Source of the DNA: Oscillospiraceae bacterium
GTDB taxonomy: Bacteria > Bacillota > Clostridia > Oscillospirales > Ruminococcaceae
Length of the DNA: 36,706 nt
Direction: 5' to 3'
Assembly (NCBI GenBank): GCA_017439985.1
Contig: JAFSIC010000017.1
Span: 1 to 36,706, forward strand
A program made the position numbers and the translations under genes. Shown here one piece after another: positions 18,226 through 25,518 of the stretch. Numbering within the stretch: the first letter of the stretch is position 1; the number at the start of each line of letters is the position of its first letter. Under the pieces are notes generated by a model. The model was not told the DNA's origin. It searched no databases and was given only the letters and a program-made list of their open reading frames with translations.

Positions 18226-18246
18226 GAAAGTACGTGCAATTACGCC

Positions 18247-18355
18247 GTTTCTTTCATCCGGACTATACCGTTGGTATGGGAGTTTCACCCATTCATGCCG
18301 CAGATGCGGCTCGCGGACTTTACCGCCAGTGAGGATTTGCACCTCGCCCTGAAAC
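18247..18355 (-). promoter_or_regulatory. FMN riboswitch (RFN element)
   Basis: The minus strand shows the aptamer core in order: GTTTC (P1), AGGGCGAGGTGCAAATCCTC, ACTGGCGGTAAAGTCCGCGA, a GC stem (GCCGCATCTGCGGC), GGTGAAACTCCC, ACGGTATAGTCCGGATG, and closing GAAAC. These are the universally conserved FMN aptamer segments. An extra perfect hairpin (GTCGGC-AGA-GCCGAC, 18363-18377) lies between the promoter and the aptamer. Ligand binding is predicted to favour the downstream terminator and repress ribU. Confidence 0.95.
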
Positions 18356-18398
18356 AGACAGCGTCGGCAGAGCCGACAATCTTTTACTTATCGAGTTC

Positions 18399-23165: not shown

Positions 23166-23174
23166 ATATAGGAT

Positions 23175-23268
23175 CCTCATCTCTCGGTTACACCGCAGGA
23201 TTTGGCACCTTACATTGCTGCAGGTTGCCGGACTTCACAGGGCCTGTCCCTCCGTCGCTCTTGATAAG
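23175..23268 (-). promoter_or_regulatory. SAM-I riboswitch (S box)
   Basis: The minus strand reads CTTATCAAGAG, CGACGGAGGGACAGGCCC, TGAAGTCCGGCAACC, AAGGTGCCAAATCC and GAGAGATGAG, the conserved S-box segments in order (kink-turn GA, GGCAACC, GGTGCCAA). When SAM is high it should stabilise P1 and release the terminator, lowering metK. Confidence 0.95.
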
Positions 23269-23293
23269 TTGGTATTCGATTTGTGCAACAGTA

Positions 23294-23643: not shown

Positions 23644-23976
23644 TCAACTGCTGTAATCTTCGATCCGTTTCAGTAATTCTTCGTAATCTTTTACCGGAAT
23701 CCCATGCTCCAGCTGTTTTCTGTCCAATTCGGGCAGGGTTTGGATATAAACATCAAAGACCCTCCGTGGCTGTGTTTCTCCATAGAAATAGACCGCCAGT
23801 TTGCCGTCGCAGACTTTCAGTTCGTAAGCATACTCCGCATTTTCCTTTGGAACTTCCTCCGTCGGCTGCAGTGAAGATTCCTCCTCCACCCAACTCTGGG
23901 GCACTGTCAGGAAAAAGGTCACTACGATCACCACAGCAAGAATCGCCGCGCAGGTCAGTAACAGATTCCGGCTCAT
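23644..23976 (-). CDS. Small membrane-anchored protein with a BofC C-terminal-like domain
   Basis: The protein is 110 aa from ATG at 23974-23976; GGAGG lies 7-8 bases upstream, while an in-frame GTG two codons earlier abuts it. A membrane segment (about residues 4-24: RNLLLTCAAILAVVIVVTFFL) leads to an acidic Glu/Pro linker and a domain of about 65 residues. The pattern YELKVCDGKLAVYFYG, TLPELDRKQLEHGIPVKDYEELLKRIEDYSS resembles the BofC C-terminal domain of spore formers (DG-x-hAVY, LP-x-xD, LxxGI, LEDYSS). BofC restrains the sporulation protease SpoIVB; that role is not shown here. The gene stands alone between a terminator and the ncRNA candidate. Confidence 0.7.
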   Translation of the reverse strand: MSRNLLLTCAAILAVVIVVTFFLTVPQSWVEEESSLQPTEEVPKENAEYAYELKVCDGKLAVYFYGETQPRRVFDVYIQTLPELDRKQLEHGIPVKDYEELLKRIEDYSS

Positions 23977-24036
23977 TTCCACACCTCCACACAGACTTTT
24001 CTTCCTTATTCTGCACTGCCCTTTCGTATTTATGCA

Positions 24037-24064
24037 GAAAACAGGCGGCCTTTCGGCCGCCTGT
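24037..24064 (-). terminator. Terminator after the methionine gamma-lyase gene
   Basis: ACAGGCGGCC and GGCCGCCTGT form a perfect 10-bp stem (24041-24050 with 24055-24064), loop GAAA on the minus strand, followed by TTTC. Confidence 0.85.
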
Positions 24065-24083
24065 GAGAAGCTTCTGTTCTATT

Positions 24084-25280
24084 TTATGCAAGTGTGTCCA
24101 AAACTGCCTTGAAGTCAGCGATGATATCTTCCGGATCCTCCAGACCCACGCTGATACGCACCAGCCCCTCCGGAATACCGGCATAAGCCAACGCCTCCGC
24201 CGTATAGGTGGAGTGGGTCATGGTTGCCGGATGCTCTACCAGAGTCTCTGCGTCACCCAGAGAAACTGCAATGGTGCAGAGCTGCAGTTTATTGATGCAG
24301 GCTGCTGTCGTTGCTCGGTCGGCTTTCAGTTCAATGGAGATCATACCGCCCGGAAGTTTCATCTGTTTTTTCGCTACTTCATGACCCTCAAAGCTCTCCA
24401 GACCCGGATAGTACACTTTTGCTACTGCCGGATGCTGCACGAGGAACTCTGCGATTTTCTTCGCGTTAGCGCAGTGGCGCTCCATACGAATGTCCAGAGT
24501 TTTCAGGCCGCGGGCAATCAGAAATGCATCGAACGGACTCAGGGTCGCACCGGTCATATCTTTCAAACCGAACATACGGCACTTCATAATATAGTCCTCT
24601 TTGCCAACAATAAAACCGGCAATGACGTCTCCATGACCATTCAGATATTTGGTCGCACTGTGTACCACAACGTCTGCGCCCAAATCCAACGGACGCTGAA
24701 TGTACGGAGTACAGAAGGTATTATCTACAATAACAAGAATCCCCGGATTGTATTCATGGGCAATGGAAGCAAGACGCTCAATGTCCAGAATCTTCAGAGT
24801 CGGATTGCAAGGAGTTTCAAAGTAAACCACTCTGGTTTTCTCCGTCAATGCCGTTTTCAGAGTTTCCGGATCTGTGAGATCCACGAACTTGGTGCTGACA
24901 CCAAACTGAGTCAATCCATGGCTCATCAGCGCATACGTACAGCCGTAGAGCGTCTTATCCGCAACGATCTCGTCACCGGCTTTCAGTGCAGACCACAACG
25001 CAGACGAGATAGCGCCCATACCAGAAGCTGCAGCCACAGCAGCTTCCCCGTTTTCCAGAGATGCGATCTTTTCTTCAACCGCCGTGATGGTCGGATTGCC
25101 CAAACGAGTATAGATGTAACCGTTTTCCTGTCCGGCAAAGCGGGCACCACCCTGCTCCACACTTTCAAACTCAAAGGTCGAAGTCTGATAAATCGGTGCA
25201 CAAAGAGCGCCTGCCGTATTCTTCTGCTTACCCACATGGATCTGTCTTGTTGCAAAGCCCAGTTCACTATGCTTTTTCAT
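24084..25280 (-). CDS. Methionine gamma-lyase (PLP enzyme)
   Basis: The enzyme cleaves methionine to methanethiol, 2-oxobutyrate and ammonia. The protein is 398 aa, the length of the Pseudomonas MdeA enzyme. The PLP lysine is Lys211 in HSATKYLNGHGD. Tyr112 and Cys114 in the LYGCTY motif match the active-site Cys that separates methionine gamma-lyases from cystathionine lyases. YIYTRLGNPT (55-64), VVYFETPCNP and the C-terminal SMTHS-like motif (ATMTHSTYT) are present. The start ATG at 25280 is chosen because AAAGGA stands 8 bases upstream; the frame is open further up without a site. It has a structured leader, and metK lies close by. The split from cystathionine gamma-lyase rests on Cys114. 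Confidence 0.9.
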   Translation of the reverse strand: MKKHSELGFATRQIHVGKQKNTAGALCAPIYQTSTFEFESVEQGGARFAGQENGYIYTRLGNPTITAVEEKIASLENGEAAVAAASGMGAISSALWSALKAGDEIVADKTLYGCTYALMSHGLTQFGVSTKFVDLTDPETLKTALTEKTRVVYFETPCNPTLKILDIERLASIAHEYNPGILVIVDNTFCTPYIQRPLDLGADVVVHSATKYLNGHGDVIAGFIVGKEDYIMKCRMFGLKDMTGATLSPFDAFLIARGLKTLDIRMERHCANAKKIAEFLVQHPAVAKVYYPGLESFEGHEVAKKQMKLPGGMISIELKADRATTAACINKLQLCTIAVSLGDAETLVEHPATMTHSTYTAEALAYAGIPEGLVRISVGLEDPEDIIADFKAVLDTLA

Positions 25281-25288
25281 TTGATACA

Positions 25289-25348
25289 TCCTTTCTGTAT
25301 GTCCGCTGTGCGTCTCCCCATGCACAGCTCCAATGGGGGTTCTTCCCC
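25289..25348 (-). promoter_or_regulatory. Leader of the methionine gamma-lyase gene: H-type pseudoknot and SD hairpin
   Basis: On the minus strand, CCCCAT (25333-25338) can pair with ATGGGG (25316-25321) while GCTGTGC (25322-25328) pairs with GCACAGC (25305-25311). The order A-B-A'-B', with 4-nt loops TGGA and AGAC and no gap between B and A', is a textbook compact H-type pseudoknot. Downstream, ATACA and TGTAT pair around GAAAGGA, placing the Shine-Dalgarno in a loop. A competing GGGG-AAGAA-CCCC hairpin lies at the transcript start. All pairings are perfect; function is inference. Confidence 0.55.
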
Positions 25349-25354
25349 TTCTTT

Positions 25355-25360
25355 ATTATA
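25355..25360 (-). promoter_or_regulatory. -10 element of the methionine gamma-lyase gene
   Basis: A perfect TATAAT on the minus strand predicts a transcript starting near 25348. There is no good -35 at 16-18 bp; a TTGACA lies about 34 bp upstream, too far for direct use. Confidence 0.55.
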
Positions 25361-25410
25361 CCACGGAAGAATGCCCGTCTGAGGAAAAAACAGCAGATTG
25401 TCAACCAAAC

Positions 25411-25518
25411 ATTTCCGAACATTTTCATATTCTTCGATGAAGACTTTTCAATAAATTTAAGATTTCTTCACAAAGATTGTGTTATACTCAGTGTAAGGTC
25501 GGTATTTCCGAACATTTT
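25411..25518 (+). repeat. 15-bp direct repeat upstream of the PBP gene
   Basis: ATTTCCGAACATTTT occurs at 25411-25425 and again at 25504-25518, 93 bp apart. The copies flank a TATACT (25483-25488). The second copy runs into a stem, CATTTTT-CTCG-AAAAATG (25513-25530). In this 323-bp divergent gap these repeats may be sites for a regulator of the PBP gene. Confidence 0.6.

Follow-up and report, generated by a model that had tools for sequence, protein, structure and literature searches.

The leader of the methionine gamma-lyase (MGL) gene in the window, by which we mean the whole 36,706-nucleotide stretch of DNA that was analyzed, likely contains a selected RNA structure, because one of its stems, stem B, covaries with its counterpart in the sole homologous leader found and, judging by that alignment, is maintained through compensatory changes. 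Our preferred reading, held tentatively, is a lineage-specific 5′ UTR of two hairpins that works passively on mRNA stability or ribosome loading. What stands at present is a structured 5′ UTR in which one hairpin (B) is well supported in two genomes, and the pseudoknot and the switch that the same letters allow are not backed by related species.

Assignment of the gene is based on a TIGR01328 match of 595.5 bits against a cut-off of 549.7 (profile run on 24084-25283) together with a PF01053 match of 494.8 bits. The elements of the leader, all on the minus strand, are collected in Table 1. The distance from the TATAAT box through six nucleotides to GGG, where transcription is predicted to start, is identical in the two homologous leaders; a consensus scan for -35/-10 pairs returned none at this promoter. 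No minus-strand terminator-like site falls within the leader, which makes attenuation unlikely. On the plus strand, terminator-like matches at 25335-25351 are hairpin 1 read from the other strand, followed by the complementary letters of the TATAAT region; the one long plus-strand frame that ends nearby (23766-25382) is antisense to MGL. Extending the N-terminus of MGL into the leader, from a GTG at 25325, was considered and rejected: the frame is open in the homologue too, yet the two extensions share little, and so the leader is probably not coding. Elsewhere in the window a SAM-I riboswitch (23174-23270, minus strand) precedes metK and an FMN riboswitch lies at 18242-18360 (minus strand), both above the gathering score; between MGL and metK a small protein is encoded at 23647-23982 (minus strand) with a BofC C-terminal domain match of 24.4 bits (cut-off 21).

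Table 1. Features of the MGL gene and its leader, in window coordinates
Feature	Positions	Strand	Remarks
MGL (methionine gamma-lyase) CDS, 398 aa	24084..25280	-	ATG at 25280
Possible upstream ORF, 14 codons	25277..25321	-	Read from sequence only; preceded by TTGGAG; its TGA overlaps the MGL ATG (ATGA)
Weak Shine-Dalgarno (SD) hairpin	25284..25300	-	ATACA 25300-25296 / TGTAT 25288-25284; loop holds GAAAGGA; SD is AGAAAGGA, 25296-25289
Hairpin B	25305..25328	-	GCTGTGC 25328-25322 / GCACAGC 25311-25305; covariation with the homologous leader L006
Stem A, 3′ arm ATGGGG	25316..25321	-	Within the stem B loop
Stem A, 5′ arm CCCCAT	25333..25338	-	Alternative partner of 25316-25321; perfect in the window
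5′-terminal hairpin 1	25335..25348	-	GGGG 25348-25345, AAGAAC, CCCC 25338-25335; in the MFE fold; at the predicted 5′ end
TATAAT box, extended -10	25355..25360	-	TG one base upstream; from sequence; predicted start near 25348

The sole homologous leader found, L006, belongs to Oscillospiraceae bacterium RGIG8545 (genome G002) of the same genus, and its MGL is the closest among the best 80 of 435 MGL-like stretches from a species-level genome collection. The two proteins are identical at 337 of 398 residues, and four-fold codon sites at 91 of 170. The neighborhoods agree as well, with an S-box downstream of MGL in both and the start of a divergent penicillin-binding protein gene alignable upstream. 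From the TATAAT box onward the two leaders align, with 59 of 74 positions identical as against 67 of 83 aligned positions (with many gaps) in the 100 nucleotides upstream of the -10 box; since this flank is alignable too, conservation of the leader does not clearly exceed that of its surroundings. The whole evolutionary argument that follows is a comparison of these two sequences.

Within that comparison L006 keeps six of the seven window pairs of stem B, three of them through double compensatory changes, and loses the innermost C-G pair. Every perfect stem of at least six pairs with a loop of 4-15 nucleotides in the syntenic 4.2 kb was taken as a control, 19 stems including A and B; stem B has three double changes, two stems have one, and sixteen have none. 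The observed covariation score was reached in 72 of 500 column shuffles, a control that is weak with two sequences. In the loop of hairpin B the eight nucleotides TGGGGAGA (25320-25313) are identical in L006, where part of this region pairs in the MFE fold as UUCU/AGAA around GGGG, and the loop stretch UGGGGAGA is likewise unchanged while the stem around it changed. UGGGGAGA resembles an SD, its duplex with the 16S tail being estimated at -7.8 as against -9.8 for the real SD.

MGL is encoded in 2 of 6 genus genomes (E 1e-80), the other four being uninformative for the leader, and in 5 of 396 family genomes (E 1e-170); the patchiness of this type of MGL across genus and family hints at transfer or loss. 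The leaders of MGL genes at 79% protein identity or lower, within the best 80 of 435, are unlike that of the window (14 were aligned). Several relatives come from animal guts, to judge from their record titles. A family-wide MGL leader element was rejected, in that model R1 applied to 82 sources finds the two leaders and two weak matches (E 0.35 and 8.2). With stricter filters that lose weak matches, and in genome sets that overlap, R1 finds the two known leaders plus 12 weak matches (E 0.01 to 0.96) in 396 family genomes and the window plus 12 weak matches (E 0.004 to 0.09) in 394 order genomes, where G002 is absent from the matches. Given per-genome E-values across so many genomes, the weak matches are no more than chance. 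Inspected by eye, most of these loci (12 family, 8 order) overlap long open frames, and no methionine-gene leader was recognised among them. Viral contigs gave no match to a degenerate leader pattern and no MGL protein. Folding z, taken over 75 MGL leaders with the window and L006 counted in, averages -0.16, and eight leaders fall below -2, so a structured leader is no general need of the MGL gene; the window leader has a z of -2.72 and L006 of -2.35. Among the Oscillibacter-like MGL leaders, seven (L007, L008, L015, L017, L029, L031 and L033) carry a GATAgC/GATAaC-gAAAAA-type stretch about 65-85 nucleotides before the ATG, roughly where the window has TATAAT, and L034 and L036 carry it somewhat nearer the ATG; in some Oscillibacter-like leaders a G/C-rich hairpin of variable sequence directly precedes the SD.

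The initial annotation described a compact pseudoknot in this leader, and its letters are present as it gave them: perfect stems of six and seven pairs in the order A-B-A′-B′, with 4, 0 and 4 nucleotides between successive arms, the loops being TGGA and AGAC and B directly adjoining A′. Such a pattern occurs at one place in the window (a plus-strand match at 25305 is the same place read from the other strand) and in none of 3000 dinucleotide shuffles of the 72-nucleotide leader, or none of 1000 when G-U pairs are allowed; the test was post hoc, the pattern having been seen before the test was chosen, and its outcome is extreme. The complementarity of stem A thus exists in the window, and the pseudoknot is possible in the window species. 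Comparison with L006 does not confirm stem A as a pseudoknot helix, as far as the two leaders can be read: three C-G pairs are unchanged, one A-U becomes G-U, one pair is broken and one meets a gap. The check proposed with that description, an alignment of leaders for compensatory changes in both stems, came out for stem B, with its three double changes, and for stem A gave none. Hairpin 1, for which six pairs were counted, has five unchanged in L006 (GGG/CCC and two flanking), one paired only in L006 and no double change; because invariant pairs are uninformative, the comparison allows both hairpin 1 and stem A and proves neither. The two share the same C's, and the competition claimed for them is supported in both leaders, where either the 5′ GGG or the GGGG of the loop could take up one CCC.

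Energy estimates differ between the two leaders. In the window the nested fold reaches -21.2 kcal/mol with the SD hairpin included, and the pseudoknot is roughly estimated, without coaxial stacking or the SD hairpin, at -18.3 kcal/mol, a value matched by 0 of 500 shuffles; on these figures the two are predicted to be close in energy. In L006 the best compact pseudoknot is equaled by 336 of 500 shuffles under script limits that exclude a CCCG/UGGG version of stem A, and that version comes to about -14 once a penalty of 9.6 is set against stacks of -8.5 and -15.1; as the nested MFE is -24.5, the two-hairpin fold should dominate there by estimate.

The ribosome binding site was also said to be displayed in the loop of a hairpin. 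The letters for this hairpin are present, and the structure is weak (-2.0 kcal/mol), absent from L006 and not beyond chance: a stem of at least five pairs, with G-U allowed and in any register around the SD, is found at 4 of the genome's 13 AGAAAGGATG sites, the window site included and the sites being taken without a filter for position before genes. The SD begins 8 nucleotides beyond the 3′ end of stem B (25305), outside both the pseudoknot and the two hairpins. Over its eight bases the mean unpaired probability in the nested ensemble is 0.63 in the window and 0.60 in L006, and its core is predicted to be mostly paired, the last three bases (GGA) in the window being 0.26-0.31 unpaired and two G's in L006 0.20-0.24. 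No leader or early-coding stretch of the window pairs with the SD over more than four bases; in L006 six bases beside the hairpin B loop (CAUUCU) can pair with the SD AGGAUG, with one G-U, a pairing that the window lacks.

These observations can be joined in the following way. The extended -10 promoter would fire with a start at or next to GGG, so that the mRNA opens with the small G-C hairpin 1; hairpin B, its loop carrying the invariant UGGGGAGA, would come next, and the SD would follow beyond both hairpins. The structured 5′ end would slow 5′-end-dependent decay and keep the leader away from the ribosome site, and MGL expression would be supported. The hairpin 1 CCCC could, in the window species, also pair with the loop of hairpin B to give the compact pseudoknot, which would either add 5′ protection or compete with hairpin 1. 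The transcript start, the formation of hairpin 1 in vivo and the effect on stability or loading are inferred. The passive two-hairpin UTR is favored by the covariation of stem B, by the constancy of TGGGGAGA although four-fold sites agree at only 91 of 170, and by the conserved spacing from TATAAT to GGG, the folding z of -2.72 and -2.35, the lack of a terminator in the leader and the lack of a known riboswitch. Against it stand the dependence on two sequences, the alignable flank, the mean z of -0.16 over 75 leaders, and an SD core that is not free. We prefer it given the lack of a terminator-like site on the leader's own strand, the position of the SD 8 nucleotides beyond the pseudoknot, the lack in the window of any partner stretch for the SD longer than four bases, and the failure to find CsrA in any of the six genus genomes.

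The constancy of UGGGGAGA amid change in its stem is left unexplained by the passive UTR, and is the best argument for readings in which the leader is a switch or a protein site. In a two-state switch the CCCC would pair either with the 5′ GGGG in hairpin 1 or with the GGGG in the hairpin B loop, and a ligand, a protein or the pace of transcription would choose between them and alter ribosome loading on MGL. The GGG-CCC-GGG triad is kept in window and L006 while stem B turned over, the hairpin 1 fold and the pseudoknot are close in energy in the window, the SD-like UGGGGAGA means that a pseudoknot could mask a standby site, and the CAUUCU pairing would offer L006 a direct contact with its SD. 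We nonetheless consider such a switch unlikely: stem A lacks compensatory changes and is eroded in L006, where the two-hairpin fold is better by estimate and the compact pseudoknot no better than shuffles (336/500, the weak stem A version excluded); the window SD lies outside the pseudoknot with no partner stretch of more than four bases; and the 396 family and 394 order genomes yielded no relatives beyond the two. A new RNA switch restricted to this lineage, in which the 5′-terminal hairpin and a pseudoknot formed with the covarying hairpin's SD-like loop would share one CCC tract, and in which a metabolite, a protein or the speed of transcription would set MGL expression, is less probable again, and a metabolite switch is speculation. 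Nothing beyond the gene downstream was found to link the leader to methionine or SAM sensing. Rfam riboswitch families gave no leader match at gathering scores, and at E up to 10 across 25200-25500 the four matches included no riboswitch and were all far under the gathering score; the earlier remark that the leader departs from the preQ1 and SAM-II consensus agrees with this, as no Rfam riboswitch family fits. Nor was a riboswitch found upstream of MGL in 40 scanned loci of 80 fetched (the best 80 of 435). Passages from papers that mention both MGL and riboswitches, among them PMC2940859, describe no leader RNA for MGL, which is no proof that none has been published.

An RNA-binding protein reading UGGGGAGA on hairpin B, as a putative site, would account for an identical loop stretch on a changed stem; with no candidate protein and two sequences only, it appears quite improbable. 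A CsrA/RsmA target in particular was ruled against, CsrA (PF02599) being found in 0 of 6 genus genomes (three of the six 77-94% complete) and in 3 of 14 control genomes. The initial suggestion of a new cis element or a protein-binding site stands to the extent that the stem B covariation makes a selected structure likely, and no candidate protein was found for its second half. Unlikely, too, is the view that hairpin B is a harmless insulator or its compensations luck, and the pseudoknot a coincidence in a G/C-rich leader. Two sequences, column shuffles that reach the score in 72 of 500 and the unrelated sequences of other MGL leaders (among the best 80 of 435) speak for it; it has to contend with three double changes in stem B, where none of the 18 other stems has more than one, and with a pseudoknot seen in 0 of 3000 shuffles. 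Finally, the upstream ORF could couple its translation to that of MGL, hairpin B folding over its start. Its frame and spacing are present in the window, whereas in L006 the ATG is replaced by CTG and the frame runs into MGL without a stop, so that the arrangement is not conserved and the coupling is highly improbable.

Were the switch real, it would define a new class among the very small RNAs that regulate in cis, one attached to an enzyme that degrades methionine and releases methanethiol and placed in a cluster where metK has the classical SAM-I switch. Known systems offer three comparisons. The SAM-I riboswitch (S-box, RF00162) occurs in this cluster too, ahead of metK in the window and, in L006, on the downstream side of MGL, and it has no match in the MGL leader itself. 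SAM-II riboswitches are tied to a methionine-related gene, as the MGL leader is, and together with preQ1-I riboswitches they share with it a compact H-type topology close to the ribosome site. In both classes the SD lies in or touching the 3′ helix, whereas in the MGL leader it lies 8 nucleotides beyond; the MGL leader also has no Rfam match, and on these two counts the reading as a translational riboswitch of this kind, raised in the initial annotation, is not supported. As a further difference, its stem B covaries and its stem A is not confirmed by covariation. Switches acting by direct occlusion usually hold the ribosome site in or touching the 3′ helix of the pseudoknot, according to passages of PMC10907184. 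The closer likeness under the passive two-hairpin reading is to 5′-terminal stabilizing hairpins, with which the MGL leader shares a hairpin at the predicted 5′ end and a ribosome site outside it. The ompA type is a hairpin of this sort, and the Bacillus subtilis aprE leader is reportedly another in bacterial mRNA. To this plan the MGL leader adds another conserved hairpin, part of whose loop is invariant, and a possible pseudoknot.
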